A DNA stretch of 64,000 nt from Bartonella krasnovii (lineage in GTDB: Bacteria > Pseudomonadota > Alphaproteobacteria > Rhizobiales > Rhizobiaceae): NCBI RefSeq assembly GCF_003606345.3, contig NZ_CP031844.2:1843001-1907000 (forward strand). The letters are read 5' to 3'. Shown here one piece after another: positions 2,688-21,998 of this stretch. The position numbers and the translations under genes were made by a program. Position 1 is the stretch's first letter. Each line of letters begins with the position of its first letter. The notes under the pieces were generated by a model that ran no database searches, was not told the DNA's origin, and saw nothing but the letters and a program-made list of their open reading frames with translations.

Positions 2688-3350
2688 ATGACTCACAACA
2701 GCTCCAACTCATTGACTCAAAACAATTTAGAACGTCCTATTTCAAAACAGCCCCACCATAGCTGGTCTCTCCGCTACTTATTTCGCTATTTTCCACCCAC
2801 AACTCTTATTCTTGCGGTCATTATTTTCATTTTTTGGGGTGGTTTTATTATTTTTTCTGAAAAAACTGAACAGCTTTTTCCCCCAACGCCTCTTCCCAAA
2901 GCCGATGCCATCATCGTGCTTACAGGCGGAGAACACCGAATAGAAACAGGACTTCATCTCTTACAAAAAGGGCTTGGTTCACGACTTCTCATCAGTGGTG
3001 TAAACACCTCAACCAATCTAAAGGGTTTTATGCATAATATGCATATTAGCCCACAGCTTATCTCCTGTTGTATTGATATTGGGCATCAAGCAATTAACAC
3101 CAGAGGAAACGCCGAAGAAAGTGCCGCTTGGATTAAAAAGCACCACTATAAAACCCTTTATATCGTCACCCATGATTACCACATATGGCGCTCAATGCGT
3201 GAACTTAAATATCTCATGCCCGATATCCATTTCATTGCTTATCCTGTAAAGAGCAAAGCTGAAAATACAATACAACAGATCAAGCAAGCCCGCATTCTTA
3301 TCGTCCAATATATTAAAACGCTCCAAGTCTATATCAGAACCGCCTTCTGA
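2688..3350 (+). CDS. YdcF/DUF218-family membrane protein
   Basis: The predicted protein (about 220 residues) has one membrane segment near the N-terminus (PTTLILAVIIFIFWGGFIIF) followed by a DUF218 domain. That domain shows the family signatures: KADAIIVLTGGEHRIETGLHLL, the LLISG strand, NTRGNAEESAAW and the YIVTHDYHIWRS histidine motif. Members such as ElyC/SanA/YdcF have roles in envelope integrity, but the exact reaction is unknown. A longer frame opens at a TTG at 2655 inside ftsX; I prefer ATG 2688, just after the ftsX stop at 2683. In related genomes this gene follows ftsEX, consistent with an envelope role. Family assignment is good; function is not known. Confidence 0.85.
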   Translation: MTHNSSNSLTQNNLERPISKQPHHSWSLRYLFRYFPPTTLILAVIIFIFWGGFIIFSEKTEQLFPPTPLPKADAIIVLTGGEHRIETGLHLLQKGLGSRLLISGVNTSTNLKGFMHNMHISPQLISCCIDIGHQAINTRGNAEESAAWIKKHHYKTLYIVTHDYHIWRSMRELKYLMPDIHFIAYPVKSKAENTIQQIKQARILIVQYIKTLQVYIRTAF

Positions 3351-3811: not shown

Positions 3812-6800
3812 TTACCGCACAATGGACAACTGAACCTTTTCAGTTTCTCGCACTTCCAATTTTGGAAGATTACGCACAATTTTCATGGTTTCTAAACTGA
3901 CCGTAATAACCCGTTGAAACAATTCCAAAGGATAGGCTGGATTACCCACCGTCTCAACAGCATAACGATTAGCATCATTCACAATCCCACTCGCTTTATC
4001 CGTTTTGACAATCTGCCGCTCCATCACCCATTCAAGAGCAGGTTTACCACTCACCACATATTCATATGCTTCAAGAGGAATATTTTGCATGGTAATATTG
4101 CTATTATAAACCACGGTGCTTTTATCAATAGCACCGCGCTTACCCGCAAATTTCATCGCTTGAACACGATAAAAACTCTCCGCGTCAGAAATCACCCAAG
4201 TTTTTGGATCCCCTTGTTTATAGGTCACCGGATAGGGCTCAACCTCTTCGTAATTCATATGCAAATCACCAAGCTTTCGACCCGCTGTCACAAAAGCCCA
4301 AAAGTCTTCTACTTTTTTAACCGTTGGAATCCGTGGCAATTCTTTAGACAGATTATGCGCATAACGCTTGCGATAATCCTCAGAATGCAAAATCCCATAA
4401 ACATAATAAAACAAATCATCTTTTGTAATCATTTCACCAGGATAGGCTTCTTTAAAATATGCCAACCCTTCATCGGTGAGTGCATCACGCCGCTTCCAAC
4501 CAGCTTTTTTACCTTCCTCTGCAAGATTGGAAAACAAATGAGATTGGTTATCTTCTTTCTCTTTTGACATCACAGTATTTTTGTAAAAATACCGCGGAAA
4601 ACATTGTCCATTATCTATTGCATAGTAATCCGGTAAACTTTTAGTCATCAAGACAGAAAAACCGCTTCTTGCTCCTACAGAAGAAATTTGTATGACTCTA
4701 TTTTTAAAAACTTCTTCTATCGGAAACATATATGGTATTTGACAGACTGCCTCATTGAAAATGCGATTATAATAAAGCCATTGTCGCGTAAAGGGACGAT
4801 ACAAGCTTTGAGTAAGACATGTATCTTCAAACTCAAAAAAATTTCCCCTAACTAACTGTTGTTTAATTTTAAGGCTCCAACTAATTTTTTTTGCATCCGT
4901 GTTAACAAAATCGTCTACAGCACCTATACGTATTTTTCGATCAAAATGCTCATAAGTATTATTAAAACGCTCTACTTCACCGTCATAAAAAGCAATCATA
5001 TTGCTCATATTGTTTGCTAAAGCTTTACGACTTGAATTATATGCCCAAGCATCACGATTAGTTTTAAGTCCACAAGAAAAGTTTTCAAAGAGCTTTTTAA
5101 CAGAACCCTTCTTCTTACCTAAGGCTAGAAATTTTTCAAAATCACTGTTGCGCTGATCCAACCAATCGCCATACTCATCTGGCGAAATCATTTGCCAGCC
5201 TTGTTCGCACTTTATACCGCTAACACTGCCCAATCTCTGAATTTCATGCAGTTTCTCTTTTGTCGTGAGGTTATTGCCAATATCATGATAATAAATTTTA
5301 CAAGGTCCTGTGGCATTGGGATTTTTGATAAACAGCGTCACCGCAATTCCTGTCATGCTTCCACTACCGAAAACATTTTGCCCTTCTTGAGCACGCCCTT
5401 TACTCAACATATTCTTGCGAATATCACCCCGCAAATTGAGAACATAAATGTTTGAGAATTCTTTGGCTAAAGACTTTCGTAAACCATCCATTGTTGGTTT
5501 TTCTATAAAACTCGAACCAGAAACAAAGCCAATAATACCGCAGTCTTTTATACGATCACTCGCCCAGCGAATAGCACGAATGTAACTATCATAAAGCGCT
5601 TGCATAAGACTCGCACTAGATTGAGCAGCATAAGTTTCACGGATACAAAAGTCCAATTTAGGATAGCCAATATTTTTCGCATTGTCATTTGCACTTTTTT
5701 GTCCAGAAGAATAAGGAGGGTTGCCCACGATAACACGAATATCCAGCTCCTTCTGGCGTGACCTGCGGGTGCTATTATCCTCTAGCAAATGACTGACCAG
5801 ATCTTTATCTTGCTCATAAAGTTGGAATGTATCGGTCAGACAAATTCCTTCAAAGGGAACATAATCCCCCCCCATCAACCCATGATAAGTCGTCTCAATA
5901 TTAATGGCTGTGATATAATAAGCCAGTAAAACAATCTCATTGGCATGAATTTCATGACAAAATTTGTGTTTCATTTCTTCTGGTTTGATCAAGCCTGATT
6001 GCAAAAGCCGTGTGATAAAAGTCCCCGTTCCGGTAAAGGGATCCATGATGTGCACCCCCGAAGAACCAAGCGTTTGGCCAAATTCTTGTTTTAACACATC
6101 ATTGACAGAATGAAGGATAAAATCCACCACTTCAACGGGCGTATAAACAATGCCGAGTTTTTCGACCGTTCGTGGAAAAGCATAACGAAAAAATTTATCG
6201 TAAAGCTCTACAATTAACCTCTGCTTTGCTTGTGGATCGGTAATACCACTGGCGCGTAATTTTACACTGGCATAAAATTTCTCAAGATCTTTGGATTCCT
6301 TATCAAGATTGGCTTCATCAAGCACATCAAGCATCTGTTGCATAGCACGCGAGACAGGATTTTCACGCGTAAACTGATAGCCTTCAAACAACACCTGAAA
6401 AACAGGACGCGTAATGATATGTTGTGCCAACATCTCAATCGCATCAGCCTCTGTAATCGTATTGTTTAAATCATCACGCAGTTCTGCTAAAAACTGGTTA
6501 AAGGCTTGACGTGCCCTCGTGTCTGGTTCTGCCAGAATACCTGTTAAGCGCGTGATATGGTTTTTGGCAATCTCCGCAATATTGCTCGCCCAGTCCTCCC
6601 AATAATCACGCGTCCCACATTTTTTGACGATCTTCGCCATAATGGCACGCGAAAGCTCATCCACAGAGAAGGAAAGTTGCCCTTTGTTCTCATCTATAAA
6701 AAGCAAATCACGCTCAGGACTTCCAATGCCCGATCGTGCCGGTTGTGAGCGGACCGGAAGATTGTCGATAACAGCCGTCACAGCTTGTAACTCAGTACTC

Positions 6801-7174
6801 TGTGTCACCCCAATAATCTCAATCACATTGCTGATATCTTGCCCCAAGGATGCCTTATTAATCGTCGCATCAAAACGATCATCATGGGCGCGCAAAGCAT
6901 TTAAAATTTGCCAAACAACCCGATATTTATCATTGTTGTTTAAAGCCTGTTCCACTGGAATATCAAAAGGAACACCAATAGGCAAAATGACATACCCCAT
7001 CTTTTTGCCTTCACTGCGACGCATCACCCGCCCAACCGCTTGCACAACATCAATCTGACTCTTGCGTGGATTTAAAAACATAATCGCATCAAGAGCTGGA
7101 ACATCCACCCCCTCCGACAAACAACGAGCATTGGTCAAAATACGACAAACCTCATCACCGCTCTCTTCTTTCAA
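3812..7174 (-). CDS. Type ISP-like restriction-modification enzyme, C-terminal part of a split gene (helicase end, methyltransferase, target recognition)
   Basis: The protein begins inside a superfamily 2 helicase: helicase motif V region (SEGVDVPALDAI) and motif VI (QAVGRVMRR). After it come a helical coupler, then an N6-adenine methyltransferase domain with motif I DPFTGTGTF (about residue 380) and motif IV NPPY (about residue 488), then a long C-terminal target-recognition part. It lacks the nuclease and helicase motifs I-III. The frame is open 36 codons further upstream, to an in-frame TAA at 7283-7285, and those codons still read as helicase (for example EHVDGTFNAKDRG), with no good start; the listed start is TTG. 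The missing N-terminal half lies at 20469-21998 on the plus strand. Known family: single-chain type ISP enzymes such as LlaBIII. The remaining 1120 codons are undisturbed, so the break is probably recent. Restriction cannot work from this half alone; methylation is uncertain. Confidence 0.85.
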   Translation of the reverse strand: MKEESGDEVCRILTNARCLSEGVDVPALDAIMFLNPRKSQIDVVQAVGRVMRRSEGKKMGYVILPIGVPFDIPVEQALNNNDKYRVVWQILNALRAHDDRFDATINKASLGQDISNVIEIIGVTQSTELQAVTAVIDNLPVRSQPARSGIGSPERDLLFIDENKGQLSFSVDELSRAIMAKIVKKCGTRDYWEDWASNIAEIAKNHITRLTGILAEPDTRARQAFNQFLAELRDDLNNTITEADAIEMLAQHIITRPVFQVLFEGYQFTRENPVSRAMQQMLDVLDEANLDKESKDLEKFYASVKLRASGITDPQAKQRLIVELYDKFFRYAFPRTVEKLGIVYTPVEVVDFILHSVNDVLKQEFGQTLGSSGVHIMDPFTGTGTFITRLLQSGLIKPEEMKHKFCHEIHANEIVLLAYYITAINIETTYHGLMGGDYVPFEGICLTDTFQLYEQDKDLVSHLLEDNSTRRSRQKELDIRVIVGNPPYSSGQKSANDNAKNIGYPKLDFCIRETYAAQSSASLMQALYDSYIRAIRWASDRIKDCGIIGFVSGSSFIEKPTMDGLRKSLAKEFSNIYVLNLRGDIRKNMLSKGRAQEGQNVFGSGSMTGIAVTLFIKNPNATGPCKIYYHDIGNNLTTKEKLHEIQRLGSVSGIKCEQGWQMISPDEYGDWLDQRNSDFEKFLALGKKKGSVKKLFENFSCGLKTNRDAWAYNSSRKALANNMSNMIAFYDGEVERFNNTYEHFDRKIRIGAVDDFVNTDAKKISWSLKIKQQLVRGNFFEFEDTCLTQSLYRPFTRQWLYYNRIFNEAVCQIPYMFPIEEVFKNRVIQISSVGARSGFSVLMTKSLPDYYAIDNGQCFPRYFYKNTVMSKEKEDNQSHLFSNLAEEGKKAGWKRRDALTDEGLAYFKEAYPGEMITKDDLFYYVYGILHSEDYRKRYAHNLSKELPRIPTVKKVEDFWAFVTAGRKLGDLHMNYEEVEPYPVTYKQGDPKTWVISDAESFYRVQAMKFAGKRGAIDKSTVVYNSNITMQNIPLEAYEYVVSGKPALEWVMERQIVKTDKASGIVNDANRYAVETVGNPAYPLELFQRVITVSLETMKIVRNLPKLEVRETEKVQLSIVR

Positions 7175-7436
7175 CCAATCAAGCAGTGCACCACGATCCT
7201 TGGCATTAAAAGTACCATCAACATGTTCAACTTCACATTGGAGAAATGGCTCAGTTTCCGCACTCCCTTGAAGACTTGTTTTTTACTCTATGGCTAAATG
7301 AAATACGAGAAGGAAAAATTAAGGGAAACGTACGTGGCAAGAATCTGGGCTGTTTATGGACCGAATTGAATAGAAGTCTTTGCTTTTTGTGAGGGAGGAA
7401 AGAAGCCAAAGGTTGTAAAAAGAAAAAGGGTATGAA

Positions 7437-8714
7437 TTAAAGCGGAAAACCGTTTAGGAGACGGGGCGCATTTGGGGTAAGGCCAGCAGCTTCTTGAATG
7501 AAATATTTTTTTATTTTGGGCGCTTGATTGATAATTCCAAGACCGGTATCGCGAAGCATCCGTAAGAGAAGGTTATCGTTCGAAAAAAGTTTATTAAGCC
7601 AATCATTGCTTAAAGCCATACGGACAATTTCAAAACGTCTCCAGCTTTGATAGCGCTCTAAAGCGATGAGGGAGCCAATGTCAAGACCTAATCGTGCTGT
7701 TTCAATAATCACTTCAGCAAGAGCAGCGCTATCACGTAATCCTAAATTGAGTCCTTGTCCTGCGATGGGGTGGATGGTATGGGCAGCATCGCCAACGAGC
7801 GCAAAACGGGGCTTAATACATTGACGTGTTAAAGAAAGTTTTAAGGGGAAAGCTTGACGTTCGCCATTCCAAGAGAGTTTTCCTAATCGATGACCAATAC
7901 GTCTTTCGAGCTCTGTTTCAAAAATAAGTGCATCAGCTTTGAGGTAATATTGTGCGGTTTTATGATCTTCATTCCATACAATGGCGGATCGGTTGCCTTT
8001 TAGAGGGAGAAGAGCGAAAGGGCCGGCCGGTAAAAAATGTTGAATTGCTTGACCATTATGTGGTTTTTCATGTTCAACTGTGCAGATGATTGCTGTTTGT
8101 TTATAGGGGTGAGCAAAGTTTTTAAGACCTGCTTTTTGGCGTAATGTCGAGTGGGCACCATTGGCTGCAATAAGCAATTTTGTTTGCCAAGCCTCTTCAT
8201 TATCTAAAGTGACAGTTGTGTGTTGGTTATCTTGATGAAAATCAACGACACGTGTGTTTGTGATAACAGGAATATTGAGATCTTTGACACGTTTTTTTAA
8301 AGTATTGATCAGTTCTCGATGCTCTACCATCGTTGCAAAGGGTTCACCAGGGGTAATATCGCCTTCAAAGGTTAAAAGAGTGGGTTTAACCGGATCATTT
8401 GTGCTTGTATCTGTGATGATCATTGAGTGAATGGGTTGTGCATAGGGTTTGATAGAGTCCCAACATTGTAGTTGTTTTAACATGCGAACAGAAGCAGCAG
8501 CAAGGGCAATGGTTCGTATGTTAGAAGCAGGAATATCTCCTTGTGGAGCAGCATCAACGATTTTTATTTTCAGATCAGGAGCCGTTTGCTTGAGTGCTAT
8601 TGCCAGTGTTGAACCGACAACCGCTCCCCCAGCAATGAGAAGATCACATTGTTTGATTTTATGAGATTTTATTTTCTTATGGGGTTTTATATCTTTATGG
8701 CGATTAGAATACAC
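7437..8714 (-). CDS. ubiH: FAD-dependent UbiH/UbiF/COQ6-family hydroxylase (ubiquinone biosynthesis)
   Basis: A flavoprotein monooxygenase of 425 residues that would hydroxylate the ring of a ubiquinone precursor at the inner membrane. It has the N-terminal dinucleotide-binding fold (LLIAGGAVVGSTLAIAL, about residues 25-41), and the second FAD motif GDAAHTIHPIAGQGLNLGLRD (about 312-332) typical of the UbiH/COQ6 family. The start is GTG at 8714; the first ~22 residues are lysine-rich and not conserved in character, so translation might begin slightly later. Which ring position it hydroxylates cannot be told from sequence alone. It stands divergent to ftsK, an arrangement common in Rhizobiales. 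Confidence 0.88.
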   Translation of the reverse strand: MYSNRHKDIKPHKKIKSHKIKQCDLLIAGGAVVGSTLAIALKQTAPDLKIKIVDAAPQGDIPASNIRTIALAAASVRMLKQLQCWDSIKPYAQPIHSMIITDTSTNDPVKPTLLTFEGDITPGEPFATMVEHRELINTLKKRVKDLNIPVITNTRVVDFHQDNQHTTVTLDNEEAWQTKLLIAANGAHSTLRQKAGLKNFAHPYKQTAIICTVEHEKPHNGQAIQHFLPAGPFALLPLKGNRSAIVWNEDHKTAQYYLKADALIFETELERRIGHRLGKLSWNGERQAFPLKLSLTRQCIKPRFALVGDAAHTIHPIAGQGLNLGLRDSAALAEVIIETARLGLDIGSLIALERYQSWRRFEIVRMALSNDWLNKLFSNDNLLLRMLRDTGLGIINQAPKIKKYFIQEAAGLTPNAPRLLNGFPL

Positions 8715-9491
8715 AATGCTTTTTCCATTATTTACGGGGCTTCTTCTATTGCTTAAAGCTTGCTTGCTGTTAAAAAGAATATTTTTCTTTTAACTTATCT
8801 ACACTATTTTGATTTTTACTTTTTCCCCTATTTTACAAAGAAGAGACTTCTCTTTGAAAGAAGTATCTTTTTGGTGTCAACCTGATGATAAATCAGTGTT
8901 TTAGAGTGCTTTTGTTTTACTTGTGTGACTCACTTTACAGATTTACCGGATCAGTTTTTTTAATGTTTTCTCCAATTCCTTTTACACTTGATTGATAGAA
9001 AAGAAAACTAAAATTAGATAAAGATGAGAATGTATTTTTAAATTTGTATGAATGTCCTTTAAGAGGCTTGTTCTAAAAGGGTACATTGAGGATGATAGAT
9101 AAAAATAGTGTTCATTTGTGATGGTTAAAACGGTATTAATGTTTTACTGTTAGCATGGTGTAACATAACCTTCTGTTGAAGAGGGTGGTAGAGATTGTTG
9201 TAAGCTCTATAACCCATGTAAAACTTTATACATGAGGTATTTTTGTTGTTTGTTTGATAATATTTTAGGATAGAACTGTTTTTATGCTTTATGTAAGGAT
9301 TGGCCTTTCAGATGGTGGTTTATGAATGACATGAAGTGGGAAAAAGGCAGAATGCACGAGATTAAGAAGTTAGATTGTTGACAGATGATCGTTTACAGAT
9401 CAGCGCTGCTGAGTGTAAGCTTCGTCCTTTTTTAGAGAAGGGGGAAGTTATAACGCTTTAAATATGACAGTTTTATATTTGGAATTGATGG
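8715..9491. other. Divergent intergenic region between ubiH and ftsK
   Basis: These 777 bases hold no frame I can support and no tRNA-like cloverleaf that I can see. The region must contain the promoters of ubiH (minus) and ftsK (plus). It is AT-rich, with several T-runs on both strands. No clear operator or hairpin stands out. Confidence 0.5.
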
Positions 9492-11942
9492 ATGCACCGA
9501 AGTTCTTCTCCTTATGATTCATTAGAGTCCCGAGATTCTCAAGGTTTTCGACTTGTTGAGATGTTTTTACGTCAGATTGGCGTATTTATTGGACTTGGGC
9601 TTTTGGGCTTTATTATTTTTTGTGTATTTTCTTTGGCAACGTGGAATGTTGCTGATCCCTCTTTAACCCATGCAAGTACAAATGAGGTTACAAACCTTAT
9701 GGGGTGGCTGGGGGCGGTTCTTTCAGATTCTATTATGCAGTTTTTTGGCTTAGCAAGTGTTGCTATTTTGTTGCCGCCGTTATTTTGGTCTTTTCTCTTG
9801 TTGGCACAAAAAAATATCTATAATTTGACTTTGCGCTTTTTTTTATGGTTGGTATCAACAATTTGTTTTTTAATGGCTTTTTCCCTTATGACGTCTGTTG
9901 CTTCTTTTACCTATTGGCCATTGCCTATGGGCTTGGGAGGGGTTTTAGGAGATAAAGTTTTAAGTGTTGCTTCTTCAATTTTTCCTCTTTTTCTTTCTCC
10001 ACTTTACAGGGGGCTCTTCAGCGTTGTTTTTATTTTTTTAGGTTTTTTCACTGCTGCTTTTGCTGGCAATGTGATATGGCGGCGTCAAGCAAAGAAAAGA
10101 AAAGAAAAAAACATTCCTAAAAACGAAATCGTTGATCCGGTTTTTGAGATGGAAGAAGATGTGGAATATAGCGCAGAGAATGATCGTGAGAAGCATGGTT
10201 TTTTTGCCACAACTTTTGGCGCTCTTTTACATCTTTTTTATTTTTTACAAGCGCGTTTTTTTCGTTTCTTCTGTTTCAAAAGGTGTTCTCAAAGTAAGAG
10301 ACAAGGCAAATCATTTGATCGGATTGAACCAACTTTTTTGGGTGAAAAAGAAAAGTGTGAGGAAAATCAAAATAAAGCTCATGTTTCTTCTTCTGTTAAA
10401 AGCCGTGGTTTGAAATCTTTAACAGTTTCTTCAAAGGGTGGTTTTGTTCTTCCCCTTTTAGATTACTTATCGGTTCCACCACCGTCTGCTAGGGATGCAA
10501 AACTTTCTCCTGCTGCTTTAAAAGCAAATTCTCAAGAACTTGAAGGGGTTTTGTTAGATTTTGGGGTTAAAGGAAAAATTATAGATGCTTGTCCTGGACC
10601 CGTGGTCACTTTGTATGAATTTGAACCGGCTGCTGGCATTAAGTCTTCCCGTATCATTAGTTTAGCAGATGATATTGCGCGTTCAATGCGTGCGATTTCT
10701 GCCCGTGTTGCTGTGGTTCCTGGGCGCAATGTGATTGGAATAGAGTTACCCAATGCAAAGCGGGAGATGGTTTATTTAAGGGAGATTGTGCAAGCACAGG
10801 AATTTGTTGAAAGTAAAGCCAAATTAGGGCTTGCTTTGGGCAAGACTATCGGCGGAGAAGCTGTGATTGCGGATTTAGCAAAAATGCCGCATCTCTTGGT
10901 GGCTGGTACAACAGGATCGGGAAAGTCTGTTGCTATCAATACAATGATTTTATCATTGCTTTATCGTATGACGCCTGAACAATGCCGTCTCATTATGGTG
11001 GATCCGAAAATGCTTGAACTTTCGGTTTATGATGGCATTCCCCATTTATTAACACCGGTGGTGACAGATCCTAAAAAAGCTGTGACTGCACTTAAATGGG
11101 CTGTTCGTGAAATGGAAGAACGCTACAATAAAATGTCAAAACTTGGCGTTCGCAATATCGATGGGTTTAATGCACGTCTCAAGGAGTCAGAAGGTCAAGG
11201 AGAGACAATGGTGCGTACCATTCAAGTAGGCTTTGATCATGAGACTGGTGAGCCTCTTTATGAAACGGAAACTCTTGATTTTAGTCCTATGCCCTATATT
11301 GTTGTCATTATCGATGAAATGGCTGATTTGATGATGGTCGCTGGTAAAGATATTGAAGGCGCAGTTCAACGTTTAGCACAAATGGCACGTGCTGCCGGTA
11401 TCCATGTTATTATGGCGACACAGCGTCCTTCCGTTGATGTTATTACGGGGACGATTAAAGCCAATTTTCCTACACGCATTTCTTTTTCTGTGAGTTCAAA
11501 AATCGATAGCCGAACAATTCTAGGTGAACAGGGGGCTGAGCAATTATTGGGACAAGGCGATATGCTTTTTATGATGGGAGGAGGACGTATTCAACGGGTG
11601 CATGGACCTTTTGTTGCCGATGATGAAGTGGAGCAGATTGTTGCGCATCTTAAAGCGCAAGCACGACCTGATTATTTGGAAACAATTACCCAAGAAGTTG
11701 AAGAAGATGGAGCTGATGTTTCTTCGTCTTCTCCTTCAGCAGATGATCCCTATAGTCAAGCTGTTGCTATTGTTCTTCGTGATCGTAAAGCTTCAACCTC
11801 TTATATTCAACGCCGTTTAGGTATTGGCTATAATCGTGCTGCAACATTGATTGAGAGGATGGAAGAAGAAGGTATCATTAGTCCAGCAAATCATGCAGGG
11901 AAACGAGAAATTTTAGTTCCTGCCGAAGAAGAACGCTTTTGA
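9492..11942 (+). CDS. ftsK: DNA translocase FtsK
   Basis: FtsK pumps chromosome ends through the closing septum and activates XerCD recombination at dif. The 816-residue protein has an N-terminal membrane domain with four segments (roughly residues 27-50, 75-100, 110-135 and 165-190), a short charged linker, then the motor: Walker A AGTTGSGKS (about residue 475), Walker B VVIIDEMADLMM and the ATQRPSVDVITG segment. The C-terminal gamma winged-helix domain (STSYIQRRLGIGYNRAA, then MEEEGIISPAN) reads KOPS sites. The linker is short compared with the E. coli protein, as usual in alphaproteobacteria. A decayed duplicate of its last ~55 codons lies at 13096-13290. Confidence 0.96.
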   Translation: MHRSSSPYDSLESRDSQGFRLVEMFLRQIGVFIGLGLLGFIIFCVFSLATWNVADPSLTHASTNEVTNLMGWLGAVLSDSIMQFFGLASVAILLPPLFWSFLLLAQKNIYNLTLRFFLWLVSTICFLMAFSLMTSVASFTYWPLPMGLGGVLGDKVLSVASSIFPLFLSPLYRGLFSVVFIFLGFFTAAFAGNVIWRRQAKKRKEKNIPKNEIVDPVFEMEEDVEYSAENDREKHGFFATTFGALLHLFYFLQARFFRFFCFKRCSQSKRQGKSFDRIEPTFLGEKEKCEENQNKAHVSSSVKSRGLKSLTVSSKGGFVLPLLDYLSVPPPSARDAKLSPAALKANSQELEGVLLDFGVKGKIIDACPGPVVTLYEFEPAAGIKSSRIISLADDIARSMRAISARVAVVPGRNVIGIELPNAKREMVYLREIVQAQEFVESKAKLGLALGKTIGGEAVIADLAKMPHLLVAGTTGSGKSVAINTMILSLLYRMTPEQCRLIMVDPKMLELSVYDGIPHLLTPVVTDPKKAVTALKWAVREMEERYNKMSKLGVRNIDGFNARLKESEGQGETMVRTIQVGFDHETGEPLYETETLDFSPMPYIVVIIDEMADLMMVAGKDIEGAVQRLAQMARAAGIHVIMATQRPSVDVITGTIKANFPTRISFSVSSKIDSRTILGEQGAEQLLGQGDMLFMMGGGRIQRVHGPFVADDEVEQIVAHLKAQARPDYLETITQEVEEDGADVSSSSPSADDPYSQAVAIVLRDRKASTSYIQRRLGIGYNRAATLIERMEEEGIISPANHAGKREILVPAEEERF

Positions 11943-13095
11943 AAAACCTTTATAATCGTTGCTTATTGTATCGTAGAAAGCTCGCGTCATCGTACACACA
12001 CAAGTTCTTAATTTACGATAACCCCTTGGTATTTAAGACTTTTCATAAGGGATATTCCTTATTTTATATCATTTTACTTGTACGTTAGATTTTCTTGTAA
12101 TGTGCAAGTAAATTGAATTGATTTAATATATAGAGAGTATCTTGCAATCTTCAGCGTTATGATTTCAGTTAAAAAAATGATGATTTATCATTATAACAAT
12201 ATATTGATATAAAATAGTATCGTTTGAGGTGTGGTGGTATAAAGGCATTAATGGTTTGGTATTTAAGTATTTTTGCTGTTCTTGCCGTTCAATTTCACGG
12301 CAAAATTGGTTGTGTCATGTGATTTGCCTGTCTGCTTTTAGAAAAGGGCTCGTCTGTCGAGTTTTTGTTTAAGTGAATTGTATAGGGGAGAAAAGCCAAG
12401 AGGAACTTTCTAGAATCCAAAAAGCAGATTTCGATTTCGCAAAGTGTGCTTATAGGCAGGTTTTGAGCTTTTTGTGTTTCAAACTCCAAATTGTTTACAC
12501 AGCGGATTGGTTGAGAATTTTTTATTCTTTATGGGTGTATGGTAAGTCAAAGGAGCATTTTTTCCATTGAGTCATTGAAATTTTTTTTCAGGCTCGCGAA
12601 TAATATGTTTAGAATTTAATTTCATCCGCGTATTGACCATAATTCATGCAGCTTTAGGGATTAGGGGTGAAAAAGAAGAGATTATGCATTTAGCTAATCA
12701 GCAGAAAAGTTAAGAAATAGGGATAATTTCGAAAATTCAAAAGAAAACTTATTATTTATATAATGCATTGATTTATAATAATAATCGCATTACTCATTTT
12801 GAATAAAAGATTGCAATATCGTACGATTCTTTCACTTCAAACCTGTTTGCATTGAATCAACCAAAAACTATTCACTTGCAGGTTACGAGCGGGGAGTTCT
12901 GTGTGGATAAAAACGATTAAGAAAGAACTAAAAATGTTTGTTTTGAACCATTTCAATGGCTCAAGAACTTGTCGCAACATTTTAGGGTTGGTACACGTGT
13001 GTGATGTTCTAGCTTGGAAACGATACTGAAAGAGATTGCAAGAAATTAAAGAGGGATTTTTTGTTTTTTCTGCAATCAATAATTTCTGTTGTCGA
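11943..13095. other. Intergenic region between ftsK and the ftsK-tail remnant
   Basis: No intact gene is supported over these 1153 bases. It contains a perfect 7-bp hairpin (TTGCCGT/ACGGCAA, about 12283-12304) without a T-run, and dispersed repeat copy 2. Because an ftsK-tail remnant sits at its right end, next to lolA, this block appears to have been placed between ftsK and its ancestral neighbour by a duplication or insertion event. Confidence 0.5.
12758..13025 (+). repeat. Degenerate dispersed repeat, copy 2
   Basis: Related to the blocks at 3505, 22128 and 48930. It starts with the same cattgatttataataat motif (12764 onward), includes ttgaatcaaccaaaaact and the gtgtggataaaaacgatt block (near 12901), and continues into a ctcaagaacttgtcgcaac segment. 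There is no open frame of note. It lies inside the putatively inverted segment yet has the same orientation as the copies outside it. Confidence 0.55.
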
Positions 13096-13290
13096 ACTGT
13101 TATTGTTGTGCTTCGTGGTGATAAAGTTTCAACTTCTTATAGTCAACGTCGTTTGGGTATTGGTTATAATTGAGCAGCGACATTGCTTGAAAAGAGGAAA
13201 GAAAGCGGCATCGTTCGTTCAGCAAATCACGAGAGAAAACGGAAAATTTTAGGCCTGTTGAGTAAGAATACTTTTAAAAATCTTTTGATA
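13096..13290 (+). pseudogene. Remnant of a duplicated ftsK 3' end
   Basis: Translated in frame, this stretch reads VIVVLRGDKVSTSYSQRRLG and then IGYN, followed by a TGA stop where FtsK has arginine, then AATLLEKRKESGIVRSANHE. This matches the FtsK gamma domain (AVAIVLRDRKASTSYIQRRL and onward) nearly residue by residue. Similarity continues past the ftsK stop codon into the first ~15 bases downstream, so the copied unit included the 3' flank. There is no start or motor domain, so it cannot encode a protein. It sits directly before lolA, ftsK's usual neighbour. Confidence 0.85.
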
Positions 13291-13397
13291 GTGTTTTCAA
13301 AAAGTATCTTTATCTTATAAAGCGGGGTATTTATTCATCATTGATGACTTAATTATAAATGATAAAGTCAATTCGATATTCTTTGGGAGCATTTTTT

Positions 13398-14009
13398 ATG
13401 AAAACGTCTTTTGTACCGCAAAAAAAAAGGGGCTTTTGTTTTGTGGGAATTCTTGTCTTTTGGTGTTTAACTTTTCCTGCTCTTTCGCAAGCATCTAATA
13501 AGATAGCAAAAGCGCAAAATATTGCCAACCACTTTGCGGCAATCAAAACAATGACAGGTGACTTTGTTCAATTTAGTCCAAAGGGGAAAATGTCTCAAGG
13601 AACATTTTATCTTGAGCGGCCGGGGAAAATTCGCTTTATTTATAAGAAAATGCCTCTACAAATTATTGCGGATGGTCAATTTGTGGGCATTAACAATCGG
13701 GCTTTAAATACTTGGAACTTTTCACAACTTTCACAAACGCCAATGAAATTTTTGTTGGATGATAAAATTGACGTATCATCTGGTCGTTTGTTGGCATTTC
13801 GTGAAGATCCAGGGGCCGTGACGATTGTTCTGCGTGATAAAACGATTGGGGCTGGGCAAATAAGAATGGTGTTTGATTCCAAAAGCTTTGCTTTACGGCA
13901 ATGGACAATTGTTGACCAACAAAACTTGGAAACGACTGTGCAGATTATGAATGTGCGGACAGGCGTTCGTTTTGTTCAGGGCATGTTTACACTTCCCTCA
14001 AAAAAATGA
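13398..14009 (+). CDS. lolA: LolA-family outer-membrane lipoprotein carrier protein
   Basis: A periplasmic protein of about 203 residues. A signal peptide (positive KKRG, then a hydrophobic run FCFVGILVFWCLTFPALSQA) is followed by a LolA-type beta-sheet domain: MTGDFVQFSPKGKMSQGTFYL, then PGKIRFIYKKMPLQIIADGQ. LolA carries lipoproteins from the LolCDE transporter to the outer membrane. I chose ATG 13398 because GGGAG lies 8 bases upstream and the signal peptide then starts normally; an in-frame ATG at 13359 would add 13 residues. The ftsK-lolA-xth order is usual in the Rhizobiales. Assignment as LolA rather than a generic LolA-like protein is likely. Confidence 0.85.
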   Translation: MKTSFVPQKKRGFCFVGILVFWCLTFPALSQASNKIAKAQNIANHFAAIKTMTGDFVQFSPKGKMSQGTFYLERPGKIRFIYKKMPLQIIADGQFVGINNRALNTWNFSQLSQTPMKFLLDDKIDVSSGRLLAFREDPGAVTIVLRDKTIGAGQIRMVFDSKSFALRQWTIVDQQNLETTVQIMNVRTGVRFVQGMFTLPSKK

Positions 14010-14043
14010 AACAATAGTGTTATGTCATTGGGATTAAAAACAG

Positions 14044-14853
14044 ATGTTCTTTCGTATTGCGACTTGGAATATTAACTCTATTCGTTTGCGCCTTGCACAG
14101 GTTTTTCAATATTTGAAATTCTTTCCGGCCGATATTTTGTGTCTCCAGGAAACAAAATGTCCCGATGCTTTATTTCCAGTGGAGGCTTTTGAAGCAGCAG
14201 GATATAAGCATATCGCACTGAGCGGTCAAAAATCGTATAATGGGGTGGCGATTGTTTCTCGTTTGCCTTTTAAAAAGGTAGAAAAGCGTTTCTTTTGTCA
14301 AAATAAAGATTGTCGCTATATCTCAGTGATTGTGGAAACCCATGGTAAATTGATGCGGATTCATAATTTTTATGTCCCTGCTGGAGGCGATATCCCTGAT
14401 GCTGAGGTGAATGAAAAATTTCGTTATAAGCTTGATTTTTTAGAAGAAATGTCTTTTATTCGTGCTGATCAAGAAGAAGAAATGTCTTCTCTTTTGCTGG
14501 GCGATTTGAATATTGCTCCTTTAGCAGAGGATGTTTGGTCTCATCAGCAATTGTTGAAGGTTGTAAGCCATACCCCCATTGAAACCGAGCGTTTACAAAA
14601 TTTGTGTTGTCAGGGCGGATGGGTTGATCTCATGCGGTTGCATATCCCTGTTCCCACTAAACTTTATACATGGTGGAGTTATCGTGCTCGCAATTGGGCG
14701 TTGACCGATTATGGGCGCCGGCTTGATCATATTTGGTCGTCTCCAGATTTAGCGCCTTTTGTGGCGGACCTTTCGACTTTTCGTGATGCGCGCGGATGGG
14801 ACCGTCCTTCCGATCATATTCCTGTGCAAACAGTATTTGATTTTTCACGTTAA
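14044..14853 (+). CDS. xth: Exodeoxyribonuclease III
   Basis: A 269-residue member of the exonuclease III/AP endonuclease family, which repairs abasic sites and trims 3' blocks. Family motifs are clear: ATWNINSIRLRL near the N-terminus, the metal-binding LQETKCPD, SYNGVAIVSR, LLGDLNIAP, and the C-terminal RLDHIWSS and SDHIPV with the catalytic Asp-His pair. It begins 34 bases after lolA and may share its transcript. Confidence 0.95.
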   Translation: MFFRIATWNINSIRLRLAQVFQYLKFFPADILCLQETKCPDALFPVEAFEAAGYKHIALSGQKSYNGVAIVSRLPFKKVEKRFFCQNKDCRYISVIVETHGKLMRIHNFYVPAGGDIPDAEVNEKFRYKLDFLEEMSFIRADQEEEMSSLLLGDLNIAPLAEDVWSHQQLLKVVSHTPIETERLQNLCCQGGWVDLMRLHIPVPTKLYTWWSYRARNWALTDYGRRLDHIWSSPDLAPFVADLSTFRDARGWDRPSDHIPVQTVFDFSR

Positions 14854-14921
14854 TTTTGAAATAACAAGGTAAATAAAGTATTAATATTACATAATGATTC
14901 TGAAAGAATGCGGGAGACTAG

Positions 14922-16400
14922 ATGCATATCAAAAATCTCAAAAGGGGCGCTTCTCGTGGATTACTTTCTAGTATCTTACTTTGTTTTCTTTTATCAGGAT
15001 GTATGGTTGGTCCGAATTATCATAAGACATTTTTCTCTGTTCCCTCTAAGTGGGGACAGCGGTCTGCGCAGATATCTCAGCATTCAATTTCCCTTGCTGG
15101 GTGGTGGCGACAGTTAAATGATCCGGTTTTAAATGCGTTAATGGATGAGGCAATTGCTGGAAATAATGATATTGCGATTGCCAAAGCTCGGGTTCGTGAA
15201 GCACGTGCGAGTTTAGGGCAAGCGGTGGGATCTTTGTTGCCAAGTGTGTCAAATACGATTTCAGGAACGCGTAGCGGCTCTGGACAATCTGATACGTTGA
15301 GCCAATATCGTAGTGGATTTGATGCAAGTTGGGAGCTCGATTTTTTTGGAGGGCATAAGCGAGGCGTTGAAGCGGCGCGTTATGGTCTTGAAGCTTCGGT
15401 AGAAGATATGCGTGCGACGATGGTCGTATTGTTAGGAGATGTAGCAACAAATTACGTTCAAATGCGTGGTTGGCAACAAAAATTATTGATTGTGCGGAAA
15501 ATTGCTGCAACGCAGCGCAAAACATATGAATTGATGCAGGCAAAATTAACAGTGGGTGATGTTTCTGAGCTCGACGTTTCAAACGCAAAAGCCCAAATGT
15601 CCAATACAGAAGCCGATATCGCTCAGATGGAAGCAAGTCTGGAAATGAGTATGCATCGCCTTTCCGTCTTAACCGGTCATGTGCCTACGGCTTTGAATGA
15701 CCTTTTACAAAAAAATGCCAAACACGTGAAAATTCCACAACCACAATGGCCAATACCAGCAGGAATTCCGGCTGATATTTTATTGTCACGTCCCGATTTA
15801 CGGCGGGCAGAGCGCCAATATGCACAAGCAACAGCACGCATTGGTCAACGTGAGGCAGAACGTTATCCCTCACTTACATTAACGGGAAATATTTCAACAG
15901 CAGCAACAGCAATAGACCAATTATGGAAAAGTTCAACTATTGGTTGGTCTTTTGGACCTGGTCTTCGTTTTCCCTTCTTTAATGGAGGACAGATTGTTGC
16001 CTCTGTTGCGATGGCGCGGGCGCAGCGTGATCAGGCTTTTATTACTTATCGCTCTGCTGTATTAAGGGCTTTAGAAGATGTTGAAAATGCGCTCGTGAGA
16101 TTAACAAAGGAACATCAGCGCCTTAACAAGCTTATCGTTGCAAATAAAGCTTTTCTGCATTCTTTACAACTGTCACAAAGTCTCTTTGAAAATGGCAACA
16201 CCAGTTTTCTTGAATTATTAAATGCTGATCGTTCTTATTATTCTGCGCAAATGGCACTTAAAGATAGCCGCATTGCTTTAGCTACCCAATATATTGCTCT
16301 GATGAAAGCATTGGGGGGTGGATGGGATGGTGTCGTTGATGTGTCACGTCCGGAAATCGTTGATGGTGTTTCCCATTCATTTGCAAAGGTAGGCCAATGA
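14922..16400 (+). CDS. Outer-membrane efflux lipoprotein of the TolC/NodT family
   Basis: A 492-residue outer-membrane channel component. The N-terminus is a lipoprotein signal with lipobox LSGC (Cys about residue 27) followed by MVGPNY, the signature start of NodT/OprM-type channels. Two repeats of the OEP domain follow, with long helices (for example VREARASLGQAVGSLLPSVS and the LSRPDLRRAERQYAQATARI region). Its stop overlaps the start of the adaptor gene (ATGA), so the three genes to 19600 form one operon encoding a tripartite MacAB-type exporter. Substrate unknown. Confidence 0.9.
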   Translation: MHIKNLKRGASRGLLSSILLCFLLSGCMVGPNYHKTFFSVPSKWGQRSAQISQHSISLAGWWRQLNDPVLNALMDEAIAGNNDIAIAKARVREARASLGQAVGSLLPSVSNTISGTRSGSGQSDTLSQYRSGFDASWELDFFGGHKRGVEAARYGLEASVEDMRATMVVLLGDVATNYVQMRGWQQKLLIVRKIAATQRKTYELMQAKLTVGDVSELDVSNAKAQMSNTEADIAQMEASLEMSMHRLSVLTGHVPTALNDLLQKNAKHVKIPQPQWPIPAGIPADILLSRPDLRRAERQYAQATARIGQREAERYPSLTLTGNISTAATAIDQLWKSSTIGWSFGPGLRFPFFNGGQIVASVAMARAQRDQAFITYRSAVLRALEDVENALVRLTKEHQRLNKLIVANKAFLHSLQLSQSLFENGNTSFLELLNADRSYYSAQMALKDSRIALATQYIALMKALGGGWDGVVDVSRPEIVDGVSHSFAKVGQ

Positions 16401-17617
16401 AAAAAAGTTTCATCAAAAATTTCATTACAAAACGCAAAAAGCTCTCATTCTTTCTGATTTCTCTCTTCATTATTATCACTTTTTTATGGTTACGCTCTGC
16501 TTTTTTTGGAACATCTACACCAACCTATATGACAGCTGTGGTGAAGCGTGGTGATATTGAGGAAAGTGTTCTGGCTTCTGGAATTGTGCGTCCTTATCGA
16601 TTGGTGGCGGTTGGGGCGCGTACTACGGGGCGGGTGGTATCTATGCGCGTTTTTCCGGGAAGTGTTGTGAAAGAGGGAGAGCTCTTGGCAGAAATTGATC
16701 CTACAGACCAAGAAAATGATCTGAAAAGAAAAAAAGCAGCCTTAGCGCATTATCATGCCAATTTAATGGAACAAGAAGCTTATCTTGCCCTTGCACAGAA
16801 AAATTTAGCGCGGCAGAAAAAAATGATCGAGTCGCGTGCAGTTTCAAAAGCTAATTTTGATGATGCCGTGACACAAGTGAAAATACGCGAAGCGCAAATT
16901 GCTCAGTTGCGTCAACAGATTGTGCAAGCTCAAATTGATGTGGAGAGTGCAGAGGTTAATCTTGGTTATACGCGAATAACTGCTCCTTCAGCGGGAACGG
17001 TTTTGGCAACAGTTGTTGAAGAAGGTCAAAATGTTAATGCTGTTCAGTCGGCACCCACAATTGTCATTTTAGGTGACTTGTCAAAGATGACAGTTAAAGC
17101 ACAAATTTCGGAAGCCGATATTCTTAAAATTCGCGCCGGGCAACCTCTTTATTTTACGGTATTGGGTAATGCAGACCGTCGTTATGAGGGAACATTAGAA
17201 AGGGTTGAACCAGCTCCTGAATCCATTCGTGCTGATGTGAGTATTAACCCTGGTTTAGGCGGTAGCTCTTTCCCATCGTCGGCAATTTATTATAATGGGA
17301 TTGTGCATGTTGATAATAAAGACAACTTTTTGCGAACTTATATGACTGCTCAAGTGCATATTATTTTAGGACGTGCTCAGAATGTTTTGCTGGTTCCAAG
17401 TGATGCTTTGCGTGATGAAACAAAAGAAGGAAAAGCATGGGTTTCAGTGTTGGTGAGGGAAAATAAAGTAGTGGCAAAACAGGTGACTGTAGGGCTTAAT
17501 AACAAAGTGATGGCAGAGATTGCTTCAGGGCTTGATGAGGGGGATGTGGTTATTACTGGTTCGCGCGATGGTGTGATGCCAGAAATCCCAGATGAACACA
17601 GCGAAGATGAGAATTAA
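16397..17617 (+). CDS. macA: Periplasmic adaptor subunit of a MacAB-type efflux pump
   Basis: A 406-residue membrane-fusion protein. It has an N-terminal anchor (LSFFLISLFIIITFLWLRSA), a biotinyl-lipoyl-like half (VKRGDIEESVLASGIVRPYR), a helical hairpin of about 90 residues rich in Gln and Ala (roughly 120-190), the second lipoyl half (ITAPSAGTVLATVVEEGQNV) and beta-barrel and membrane-proximal domains. It links the inner-membrane transporter to the outer-membrane channel. It overlaps the upstream gene by 4 bases and is followed 3 bases later by the ABC transporter gene. Confidence 0.9.
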   Translation: MKKSFIKNFITKRKKLSFFLISLFIIITFLWLRSAFFGTSTPTYMTAVVKRGDIEESVLASGIVRPYRLVAVGARTTGRVVSMRVFPGSVVKEGELLAEIDPTDQENDLKRKKAALAHYHANLMEQEAYLALAQKNLARQKKMIESRAVSKANFDDAVTQVKIREAQIAQLRQQIVQAQIDVESAEVNLGYTRITAPSAGTVLATVVEEGQNVNAVQSAPTIVILGDLSKMTVKAQISEADILKIRAGQPLYFTVLGNADRRYEGTLERVEPAPESIRADVSINPGLGGSSFPSSAIYYNGIVHVDNKDNFLRTYMTAQVHIILGRAQNVLLVPSDALRDETKEGKAWVSVLVRENKVVAKQVTVGLNNKVMAEIASGLDEGDVVITGSRDGVMPEIPDEHSEDEN

Positions 17618-17620
17618 GTC

Positions 17621-19600
17621 ATGAAAGCAGAAAAAGCAGAGGCTGTTTTCGTTTTAGAAAATATTGTGCGCACATTTCCTGCGGGTGAAACATCTGTTAC
17701 TGTTTTAAAGGATATCAATTTGACCATTAAGCGTGGGGAAATGGTAGCAATTGTGGGGGCTTCTGGTTCTGGAAAGTCCACATTGATGAATATTTTGGGC
17801 TGTCTTGATCGACCAAGTTCTGGTCGTTATTGGATTTCAGGAAAAGAAACAGCTTCTCTTTCTGCTGATGAATTATCAGCCTTACGGCGTAATCATTTTG
17901 GATTTATTTTTCAGCGCTATCACTTATTGAATGAATTAACCGCCCTTGGCAATGTTGAAATTCCAGCGATTTATGCAGGTTGTGCACCGGATATGAGAAA
18001 AAAGCGTGCAGAAGAACTTTTAACACGCTTAGGTATGGGAGAGAGAATTAATCATCGTCCCAATCAACTTTCAGGGGGGCAACAACAACGAGTATCTATT
18101 GCGCGCGCATTGATGAATAATGCGGAGGTTATTCTTGCTGATGAACCAACCGGAGCACTGGACAAACACAGTGGGCAAGAAGTTTTGCGTATTTTGGATG
18201 AGCTTCATCAAGAAGGGCGCACCATTATTATTGTAACGCATGATATGCAGGTGGCTAAAAGAGCAGATCGTATTATTGAAATCAGTGATGGAGAAATTAT
18301 TGCTGATAAGCTCTCAAAAGGTGTAAAAACAAGAGCTCAGTCCCTTCAGGAGCAAGAAAATCTAAAAGAGCAAAAAACACTGGGTTTTTTTCGTTCTTTT
18401 ATTGAACGTTTTCGTGAAGCATTTGTCATGGCATTGTTGGCTATGAATGCACATCGTATGCGAACTTTTTTAACAATGCTTGGGGTGATTATCGGTATTG
18501 GGGCGATTATTGCCATGGTTGCTTTGGGAAATGGTACGCGGGAAAAAATTATGGAAAATTTTAAGAGTTTGGGCTCTAACACATTAACAATTTTGCCTGG
18601 AAAAAGCCTCTCTGATCCACAAGCAGAGAAAATAACCAGTCTGGTGGAGGCGGATGCAGAAGCTCTTTCTAAATTACCTTATATTGCTGGTGTAACACCT
18701 CAGATTTCAGCAAGTTCTATGGTTCGTTTTGGTGGGATTGAAGTTAATGCTATCATTGCTGGGGTAGGAGAACAATATTTTCAAACACAGGGACTTAAAG
18801 CTGTTCAAGGGCAGTTGTTTGATCAAAAAAGTGTGCATGAGCGGGCGGTTGATCTTGTTATCGAAAAGGAAGCACTTTCGGTGCTTTTCCCTCATAGTCA
18901 TGGGAGTCCCATAGGGAAAATTGTTCATTTGGGTAATGTTCCTGCGCGCATTATTGGTGTGGTAGATCCACAACATATGGGAGGAGGGACCTCAAATACG
19001 TTGCAGGTTTATTTGCCTTATACAACCTTACAAACGCGTTTTCTTGGTACAACTCAAGTTCGGGCCATTACTGTGAAGATCGCCGATCATGTTGATTCAA
19101 ATTTAGCCGAGAATATGGTGAAGCGTTTCCTTATTATGCGTCATGGTGGGGAAGATTTTTTCATTAGAAATTCTCAGCTCTTTCGTGATCGTATCACAGA
19201 AAGTACACAGATTTTAACGCTTTTGGTATCTTCTATTGCTGCTATTTCATTGATTGTAGGGGGGATTGGGGTGATGAATATCATGTTGGTCACTGTTTCG
19301 GAGAGGATCAATGAAATTGGGGTGCGTATGGCTGTTGGCGCACGTCAAAGTGATATCTTGCAGCAATTTCTCATTGAAGCAATTTTGGTTTGTGTCATTG
19401 GTGGTGGATTGGGAGTCCTCTTTGGGCTTTCTATCGGTGGTTTGTTTTTGCTCTTTAAAGCGCCTATTCACCTCGTCTATACGATGGATTCGATCATTAT
19501 ATCTCTTACTTTTTCCACCCTCATCGGGATATGTTTTGGCTTTTCTCCAGCGCGACAAGCTTCACGGCTTGATCCTGTTGTTGCTCTCTCACGAGATTAA
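17621..19600 (+). CDS. macB: MacB-type ABC transporter, fused ATPase and permease
   Basis: A 659-residue protein with an N-terminal nucleotide-binding domain: Walker [11 protein letters not shown] (about residues 44-53), signature LSGGQQQR, Walker [10 protein letters not shown], and a switch histidine in IIVTHD. It continues into a MacB permease with one membrane helix (about 275-297), a large periplasmic domain, and three more helices at the C-terminus (about 530-650). In this family the pump moves substrates such as peptides or toxins from the periplasm across the outer membrane by mechanotransmission. The full-length fusion and neighbouring adaptor and channel genes make the call firm; substrate unknown. 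Confidence 0.93.
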
Positions 19601-20468
19601 GTCTTTATCAATTTAATATATGTTGATTGTTCTATCGGATGAAGTGTTTGTAAAGTAAAGCATGGATGGAAAACGTTAGTGATCTGCTATTTTTTCCTAA
19701 AAAACGCTTCATTCGTTAAAGGGAGCATGCTTTCCTTTACACTAGATATCGTTTAGCTCAAGGCATCATGAAGACTATAAAATTTATAGTACACGCCCCT
19801 TTTTAGGTTTGATCAGGAGCAAACAGGTATCATCGTACATACTTTCCTACCCCCAAATGTTGCAGCCTTTTACATGAGAAGAGTGTAGACTTGAAAATTT
19901 TCATAAGAGGCATTTTCTGTTCCTTCATGCGTGTAGCTTAGCTTTCTTTAGACTATTTGTTTAAGATATCGCTTTTTTTCTATCTCATCTCATTTCATTT
20001 TGGCGGCTGAGATAAAACAAGCTATTTGGGTTGTCTGCGATAAGGATGCTATCGGTGTTTTCTTAAGGGTGTGATTGTAAGACGCAACTTCATAAAATGC
20101 CGGTTTGATTTCATGATTTTGGTGAAGGGGATAAAAAAAGTTTGAGAGGTGAAAAGCCTCTCATTTTTTAAGCTCAATCCTAAAATTATCGCGTACTTTA
20201 TTGTGTCTTTTTACAAAAGGCAAAAAAATTCAAAATCATCATACTTTTCTTTTGTTTTCATAAGGGAGGAGATATCAGTCAATTTATCATATCGTTTGGG
20301 GCATTATATCATTTGGGAGGGGAAAAGAGATTTGCTCATATTATGTCGTTAAAGATAGAAAGAACATCTTAAAATCAAGCAATTTTAAGTCTTTGGGGGA
20401 GACACAAGAGGCATTGACGAATTGGTCTAGATTCGATAATTGAGGGTATTTTTCATTGGGGAAAAAGC
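19601..20468. other. Intergenic region between the efflux operon and the split R-M gene
   Basis: No gene is supported in these 868 bases. The notable element is the terminator-like hairpin at 20143-20169, more than 540 bases after macB, which leaves room for an untranslated transcript. I see no tRNA or clear riboswitch. Confidence 0.45.
20143..20169 (+). terminator. Intrinsic terminator candidate
   Basis: A 7-bp stem TGAGAGG/CCTCTCA with a 7-base loop is followed at once by six T residues. The minus strand also has a T-rich run after the stem, so it may act in both directions. It is far from any upstream coding end. Confidence 0.6.
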
Positions 20469-21998
20469 ATGACGACGCTACAATCGCTTTTACAGACATA
20501 TCGTGAGGAAGCGCGTACCGAACGGGATAAGGGCACGTATTTTGAGCGTTTTGCTCTTGCTTATCTGACCCATGACCCCCTCCAGTCTCAGTGTTATGAA
20601 AAGGTTCAAACTTTTAAAGATTGGGCACACGAAAATGGCTGGGATGGTCGTGATACCGGGATTGATCTGGTGGCAAAGCTTCGTCATGAAGATGGTTTTG
20701 CGGCAATTCAATGTAAATTTTATGATGAATCCTATCGGATTAAAAAAGCAGATATTGATAGTTTTATTTCAGCATCAGGGAAAGAACCGTTTAAGCGGCG
20801 TGTGATCATAGATAGTACACTCAATGCTTGGACTGACAATGCTGAAACAATGATACAGGGGCAAAAAATTCCTGTTACACGGATTAATCTTTCCGATTTG
20901 CAAAAAAGTCCAATCCGTTGGGAGACTTTTGCAGCCAAAGGCACCATTGCGTTGGAGGGTAAAAAGAAACTCCGTCCCCATCAGGGAGAGGCATTGCGTT
21001 TTGTGCGTGCGGGGCTTGCTCAGGCTGATCGAGGTAAGCTCATTATGGCTTGTGGAACCGGTAAGACATTTACCAGTCTTAAGATTGCTGAGGATTTAGC
21101 CGGTCAAGGCAAGTTTGTTTTGTTTCTTGTGCCCTCCTTGGCACTGATGTCACAGACGGTGCGTGAATGGACAACGGATGCTGAAATTGACTTACGTTCC
21201 TTTGCGGTTTGTTCTGATACACAAGTGGGAAAGCGTCGTAAAAATAGTGATGATGTTGCAGAAATTGATGTGTGTGACCTTGCTTTTCCAGCGACAACCG
21301 ATGCAGCAAAACTGGCAGAACAGGCGGGCAAAACTGTTGCAGATGAGATGAGCGTGGTGTTTGCAACCTATCAATCCATTCAGGTGATTGCAGATGCTCA
21401 GAAAAATTATGATTTTCCCACTTTTGATCTGATCATTTGTGATGAGGCGCATCGTACAACAGGGGCAACGCTGGAGGGGGAGGATGAATCCAATTTTGTG
21501 AAGGTGCATTCCAATGATGTTATTCGGGCTAAAAAACGCCTTTATATGACAGCAACCCCCCGCATTTTTGGGAATAACGCAAAAAGTCGCGCACATGAGG
21601 CCAATGCTGTTCTCGCTTCGATGGATGATGAAAAACTTTTTGGTAAAACACTTTTTTATCGGGGGTTTTCATGGGCTGTACAGCATAACCTTTTAACAGA
21701 CTATAAGGTTATTGTTTTAGCTGTAGATGAAAAACTCATCAGTTCCGCTGTTCAAAAGCGCCTTAGTGATAGCGAATCTGCGCTTATTCTTGATGATGCA
21801 ACGAAAATTATTGGTTGTTATAAGGCACTGACCAAACAAGATATGCAAGCTGATGTTGGGGGTGATCGATATCCTATGCATCGTGCTTTAGCGTTTTGTA
21901 AAGATATTCGTAGTTCTAAACTGGTCCGTAAGGAATTTTCAGCAGTTGTTGAGGAATATCTTGAGAGTCATACTTTAAGAATATTAACCACACACTAA
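20469..21998 (+). CDS. Type ISP-like restriction-modification enzyme, N-terminal part of a split gene (nuclease and helicase motor)
   Basis: The 509-residue frame begins with an Mrr-like nuclease domain: YFERFALAYL, then the PD-(D/E)xK-type core GIDLVAKL...AAIQCKFYDE (about residues 62-85). An SF2 helicase follows with Walker A MACGTGKTFT (about 194-203), DEAH box IICDEAHRT (about 316-324) and motif III TATPR. It ends within the second helicase lobe at EEYLESHTLRILTTH, missing motifs V-VI, the methyltransferase and the recognition domain, all of which are at 3812-7282 on the other strand. Upstream gggg at 20458-20461 is a plausible ribosome site. As a lone nuclease-helicase without target recognition it is probably inactive. 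Confidence 0.85.
   Translation: MTTLQSLLQTYREEARTERDKGTYFERFALAYLTHDPLQSQCYEKVQTFKDWAHENGWDGRDTGIDLVAKLRHEDGFAAIQCKFYDESYRIKKADIDSFISASGKEPFKRRVIIDSTLNAWTDNAETMIQGQKIPVTRINLSDLQKSPIRWETFAAKGTIALEGKKKLRPHQGEALRFVRAGLAQADRGKLIMACGTGKTFTSLKIAEDLAGQGKFVLFLVPSLALMSQTVREWTTDAEIDLRSFAVCSDTQVGKRRKNSDDVAEIDVCDLAFPATTDAAKLAEQAGKTVADEMSVVFATYQSIQVIADAQKNYDFPTFDLIICDEAHRTTGATLEGEDESNFVKVHSNDVIRAKKRLYMTATPRIFGNNAKSRAHEANAVLASMDDEKLFGKTLFYRGFSWAVQHNLLTDYKVIVLAVDEKLISSAVQKRLSDSESALILDDATKIIGCYKALTKQDMQADVGGDRYPMHRALAFCKDIRSSKLVRKEFSAVVEEYLESHTLRILTTH

Follow-up and report, generated by a model that had tools for sequence, protein, structure and literature searches.

An inversion of about 14.69 kb has split a Type ISP restriction-modification gene of Bartonella krasnovii into two parts on opposite strands

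In Bartonella krasnovii, the pieces of a Type ISP restriction-modification (R-M) gene now lie 13 kb apart on opposite strands, at the two ends of an inverted chromosomal segment. All positions refer to the window, i.e., the whole stretch of 64,000 nucleotides that was analyzed (contig NZ_CP031844.2), which belongs to a two-contig genome of 2,186,621 bases, with a chromosome of 2,157,564 bases. We assign a probability of roughly 0.93 to the following account as a whole. A single two-break inversion of ~14.69 kb (7275-21965) occurred in the lineage of this genome, which is represented by one strain's sequence; the inversion may be fixed in the species or may date from laboratory passage. One break hit a vertically kept Type ISP gene, in the region encoding the C-terminal helicase lobe, and the other the intergenic spacer that separates ubiH from an H-NS-like gene. 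Rejoining involved little or no homology and, by comparison with relatives, small losses and gains of bases. Restriction would have been lost, and the C-terminal part of the gene may still be transcribed.

Table 1. Coordinates of the disrupted gene, the joints, and the neighboring features in the window.
Feature	Position	Strand	Remarks
Ancestral downstream flank of the R-M gene	1..3350		Unmoved
C part of the Type ISP enzyme	3812..7271	-	Remainder of lobe 2, coupler, N6-adenine methyltransferase, target recognition domain
Joint A	7272..7274		~3 bases absent from the nearest relative's matching flanks; between C part and ubiH-side spacer
Inverted segment	7275..21965		14,691 bases, uncertain by a few bases
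ubiH-like FAD monooxygenase gene	7437..8714	-	Same direction as the C part, which now lies downstream of it
ftsK	9492..11942	+	
lolA	13359..14009	+	
Exonuclease III-like gene (Exo_endo_phos family)	14044..14853	+	
Efflux operon (OEP, HlyD-type fusion protein, MacB-type ABC transporter)	14922..19600	+	
N part of the Type ISP enzyme	20469..21965	+	499 residues; Mrr-type nuclease, helicase lobe 1, start of lobe 2
Joint B	21965..21966		N part directly abuts the old ubiH/H-NS spacer
H-NS-like gene	22969..23310	-	Outside the inversion; ancestral neighbor of the ubiH 3' end

The original prediction held that a plus-strand frame (20469-21998) and a minus-strand frame (3812-7282) are the halves of one Type ISP gene, free of other lesions, and that inverting ~14.7 kb would rejoin them. 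Both frames are open at these coordinates, neither part has an internal stop, and the domains are as predicted. The N-terminal part (N part) matched Mrr_cat_2 (E = 4e-39) and ResIII (E = 1.9e-27), with ResIII/DEAD representing the helicase side. The C-terminal part (C part) matched Helicase_C (E = 4.5e-8), ISP_coupler (E = 2e-50), N6_Mtase (E = 7e-6), and Type_ISP_C (E = 1e-101). The N-terminal Mrr-family nuclease, the two lobes of an SF2 helicase-like ATPase, the coupler, the N6-adenine methyltransferase, and the Type ISP recognition domain are all present, but the lobes are split over two frames, and these frames lie on opposite strands instead of encoding a single polypeptide. The motifs GTGKT, DEAH, TAT, and QAVGRVMR are readable in the sequences of the two parts, which we take to carry helicase motifs I-III and V-VI, and NPPY is readable in the C part. 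The frame of the C part is open over 1156 codons, with TTG at 7174 as the first mechanical start codon (1120 aa), and that of the N part runs on to 21998 by 10 unrelated residues. The nearest relatives match up to N residue 499 (21965) and from C residue ~5 (~7271) onward; the final 10 residues encoded by the N frame and the 4 at the start of the C frame therefore lie outside the gene.

Alignment with LlaBIII (PDB 4xqk) placed the N part at residues 29-516 and the C part at residues 523-1578. The LlaBIII and LlaGI alignments place the cut within helicase lobe 2, after LlaBIII residue 516 and before residue 523. Both of these single-chain Type ISP R-M enzymes (PDB 4xqk, 5ffj) share domain order and sequence with the B. 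krasnovii gene across its two parts, whereas the latter is cut within lobe 2, with the parts on opposite strands. As judged from its sequence, the locus is a disrupted Type ISP orthologue and not a working enzyme. Three full-length paralogues and several fragments are present elsewhere in the same genome.

The two halves were compared separately, by tblastn, with 24 loci fetched from other genomes, 15 of them from Bartonella. The C part followed the N part on the same strand in all 24 loci (the C half is matched only in part in L037, L043, and L044), so the parts abut in full-length homologues, and the view that they belong to one gene was borne out. This contiguity also rules out two unrelated fragments. 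In the nearest relative, Bartonella sp. B1099 (L023), N residues 1-499 lie at 10001-11497 and C residues 5-1156 at 11504-14959. Orthologues were defined by an N part of at least 75% identity, which leaves out paralogues of about 67% or less. Among the matches listed, such orthologues occurred in 26 of 70 further Bartonella genomes; all 26 have the C part behind the N part (in G020 via its locus L039), and the split state was seen in none of them. An open frame of at least 1650 residues was present in 23 of these 26 genomes, again among the matches listed. The shorter frames of the other three (G068, 1043 residues; G037, 1508; G020, 355) indicate that the gene is damaged there in other ways. 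The orthologues of B1099 and B. elizabethae F9251 (G055 and G017) are single open frames of 1658 and 1660 residues, located beside the efflux operon. Their N part is 97% and their C part 87-89% identical to those of the window, and they have the same neighbors, but in the uninverted arrangement.

The flanks of the gene in relatives settle the direction of the rearrangement. Material corresponding to window 1-3350 follows the C part in 15/15 Bartonella loci, and the efflux operon with the lolA region precedes the N part in 14/15. In the remaining locus (L025, B. massiliensis OS09), the sequence upstream of the R-M gene (1-5030) matches no window sequence, unlike in the 14 others. The second ancestral joint, i.e., the passage from the ubiH side (7275) to 21966, was found in six of eight fetched stretches (L047-L052). 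In L047, window position 7275 passes to 21966 with 2 bases between, and in L050 and L051 the uninverted join is seen at gene level. The other two stretches (L053 and L054) did not show this joint; for genome G026, the reason is that the gene is turned round. Two further stretches, L056 and L058, contain the entire uninverted order within single 20-kb spans. ubiH is present in 71/71 genomes and the H-NS region in 46/71. Of the 45 relatives that have both, 44 carry H-NS on the expected strand at most 3 kb from the ubiH 3' end; in the remaining one (G042), H-NS is near ubiH on the opposite strand. Among all 46 genomes, a distance of ~14 kb between the two is seen in the window's genome only. From the flanks in relatives and the adjacency of ubiH and H-NS, the inversion is derived and is seen, among the genomes examined, in this one only. 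The predicted inversion was thus confirmed at both joints.

In one stretch of G026 (L055; G026:C1:2330001-2350000), a whole, unsplit orthologue at 4253-9247 is reversed relative to the efflux operon, and its left flank is unlike the window. This indicates that the locus rearranges in more than one way.

At joint A, the ubiH-side spacer (...AACAAG) is connected to the C part (TCAAGGG) via ~3 extra bases. At joint B, the N part (...CTTGAG) is followed directly by the old spacer. Compared with B1099, ~5 gene bases and 2 spacer bases are missing and 3 are added. The ancestral joints were taken from relatives with an N-part dS of about 0.16-0.18, so the numbers of lost and gained bases may be off by a few. 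Words shared between the joints were compared on the two corresponding joints of B1099. At radii from 10 to 200, in either orientation, they remained near the mean of random pairs and below the random maximum. The longest inverted word was 4 bases at radius 10 and 5-6 bases at radii 15-25, against a random mean of 4.0-5.5. We therefore read the joints as probable products of illegitimate joining and not of recombination at repeats.

Homologous recombination between inverted repeats was rejected as a cause because none of the 25 longest of 196 inverted pairs (scan of 3500-22600) has an arm at each joint; among these 25, the pairs closest to the joints, I23 and I24, are still 92 to ~410 bases away. 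The dispersed repeats found between genes at 3516-3729, 12766-13006, and ~22175-22212 are away from the joints and diverged, and probably did not cause the inversion. Diverged repeats of this kind (3516-3729, 12766-13006, 22175-22212, and 48989-49347) are common to several Bartonella loci. An Rfam scan of 3400-23000 at gathering scores gave no match.

The 9-mer taaaaaaca had been proposed to mark the joint. It is indeed present at 21996 on the plus strand and at 7277 on the minus strand, but does not mark the joint: the window contains 7 copies, the copy at 21996 lies 31 bases past the joint, and the 160 bases around the spacer joint lack it in 3/3 relatives tested. Both copies that had been cited fall within the old ubiH/H-NS spacer.

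Three of 15 relatives (L023, L028, and L033) have a perfect 16-bp palindrome whose center coincides with the break in the gene, and this palindrome is missing in the other 12. It is the only one of that size in 21.5 kb of L023. The arms left in the window suggest that the window's ancestor also had it. By eye, no similar palindrome is present at the other joint, and we treat the palindrome at the break as a post hoc lead only. The window itself contains 3 perfect palindromes of at least 16 bp. Single-family searches, by which distant forms could be missed, found no match to Ku and none to SbcD in the genome. The control search for Ku was positive in 1/14 genomes (Bacillus subtilis) and that for SbcD in 13/14, with 8 above the curated cut-off. 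As no Ku was found, the end-joining route that is usual in bacteria leaves the near-blunt joints unexplained; together with the lack of an SbcD match, these joints turn the repair route into a testable question.

The N part retains the nuclease and lobe 1 without the recognition domain, and the C part the recognition and methylation domains without the nuclease. With its motor cut in two and its nuclease parted from target recognition, the enzyme would be unable to restrict DNA. Type ISP cleavage is described as requiring the convergence of translocating enzymes (PMC7049714), and one chain is said normally to carry all tasks (PMC4872093); on these two statements, loss of restriction is to be expected. 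Most likely, then, as far as the sequence tells, this restriction enzyme has been lost. The frame of the C part starts ~155 bases behind ubiH on the same strand, and no terminator-like site was found between ubiH and the C part (6900-8900); the C part may therefore still be transcribed.

Alternatively, the C part may survive as an adenine methyltransferase in its own right, either by itself or together with the N part in trans. The long open frame with its coupler, methyltransferase, and recognition domains and the passage from ubiH without a terminator-like site are consistent with this, as are the first 480 codons of the C part, which differ from L023 by 19 amino-acid vs 61 silent changes. 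In addition, a PDB chain named as a site-specific adenine methyltransferase (7lo5) matches C residues 252-1141. A simple recent break predicts the same picture, however. Moreover, the first start codon is TTG, and the methyltransferase match begins only after ~320 residues of coupler and remaining helicase. With L026 as outgroup, the C part has an excess of amino-acid changes against L023 (93/103 vs 25/74, Fisher p 2.5e-4); with L036 as outgroup, there is no significant excess vs L023 or L024 (p 0.32 and 0.55). We consider a retained methyltransferase unlikely. A fuller version, in which a chance inversion, with its break at the palindrome center and no Ku or SbcD found, parted restriction from modification and the C part behind ubiH, once part of a defense enzyme, became an orphan epigenetic regulator that methylates adenines and marks the genome, would be slightly less likely still.

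The fast changes of the C part lie largely in the recognition block. Among relatives, both synonymous and nonsynonymous divergence are high around the recognition domain (window ~5820-4380; C-part codons ~480-960), and this looks like divergence from recombination of specificity. The dN/dS of the N part was 0.087 vs L023 and 0.108 vs L024, and the window's branch showed no significant excess of amino-acid changes in this part (p 0.37, one comparison). The event had also been called recent. That both frames are open and that dN/dS is low in the N part is compatible with this but does not prove it; a recent event would fit these frames and the divergence.

The original prediction also allowed that the enzyme might phase-switch by inversion, i.e., that a recombinase flips the segment reversibly at short inverted sites and so toggles the restriction enzyme. 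Invertible, phase-variable R-M loci of the hsdS type exist, and there, as here, an end of the inversion lies inside an R-M gene. Both parts being open frames without stops would agree with a switch, and the break at a palindrome center in 3/15 relatives can be read as a recombination site. This palindrome is missing in the other relatives, however, with nothing similar seen at the second joint. Unlike in hsdS-type loci, the joints share no more inverted homology than expected by chance, bases were lost and gained so that the exchange was not conservative, and no recombinase family is represented among the ten ORFs that were scanned within and next to the segment. The split state is also absent from all 26 orthologue-bearing relatives among the matches listed. 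This part of the prediction did not hold, and we regard a phase switch as highly improbable.

An equally small chance is left to a wrong join in the published chromosome. A later assembly of B. krasnovii OE1-1 A2, taken as the same strain, is given with a chromosome of 2,163,391 bases vs 2,157,564 here (PMC11466379). Against an artifact, the joints have no long inverted repeat that could mislead an assembler, an assembler would have had to make two false joins at places that agree with each other, and neither of the nearest relative's matching flanks contains the extra bases of joint A.

The preferred reading is thus a gene disrupted by illegitimate inversion, with two breaks, near-blunt joints, and halves on opposite strands. 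Gene disruption by inversion is a known kind of event, from which the present case does not differ in kind as far as is known, and the details of the joints give it modest interest. The case represents a clean, nearly base-resolved loss of a conserved defense gene by repeat-free chromosomal inversion, with the parental joints readable in relatives. Annotation should treat the frames at 3.8-7.2 kb and 20.5-22.0 kb as a single disrupted gene. A 2018 paper in Genome Biology and Evolution reportedly described structural changes in this lineage, including an inversion in passaged lines that may or may not be the present one. No paper naming both Bartonella and "type ISP" was found in the open-licence literature, and by title and the start of the abstract none of the open-licence Bartonella papers on rearrangement, restriction-modification, or inversion is about this event. 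The words inversion, restriction, and rearrange are absent from the main text of PMC11466379. The same paper, which includes 18 B. krasnovii isolates, names published nanopore reads of the host strain (SRR6873507), which makes the age and variability of the event checkable.

The orthologue is apparently frameshifted, with split matches, in B. tribocorum C635 (L033) and B. gabonensis 669 (L039). Given the broken gene in these two loci and the shorter frame in G037, this defense gene seems to have been lost repeatedly. To the right of the inversion, repeated gene families with many overlapping matches occupy 25000-27860 and 31900-44600 of the window; they presumably resemble the trw secretion locus.
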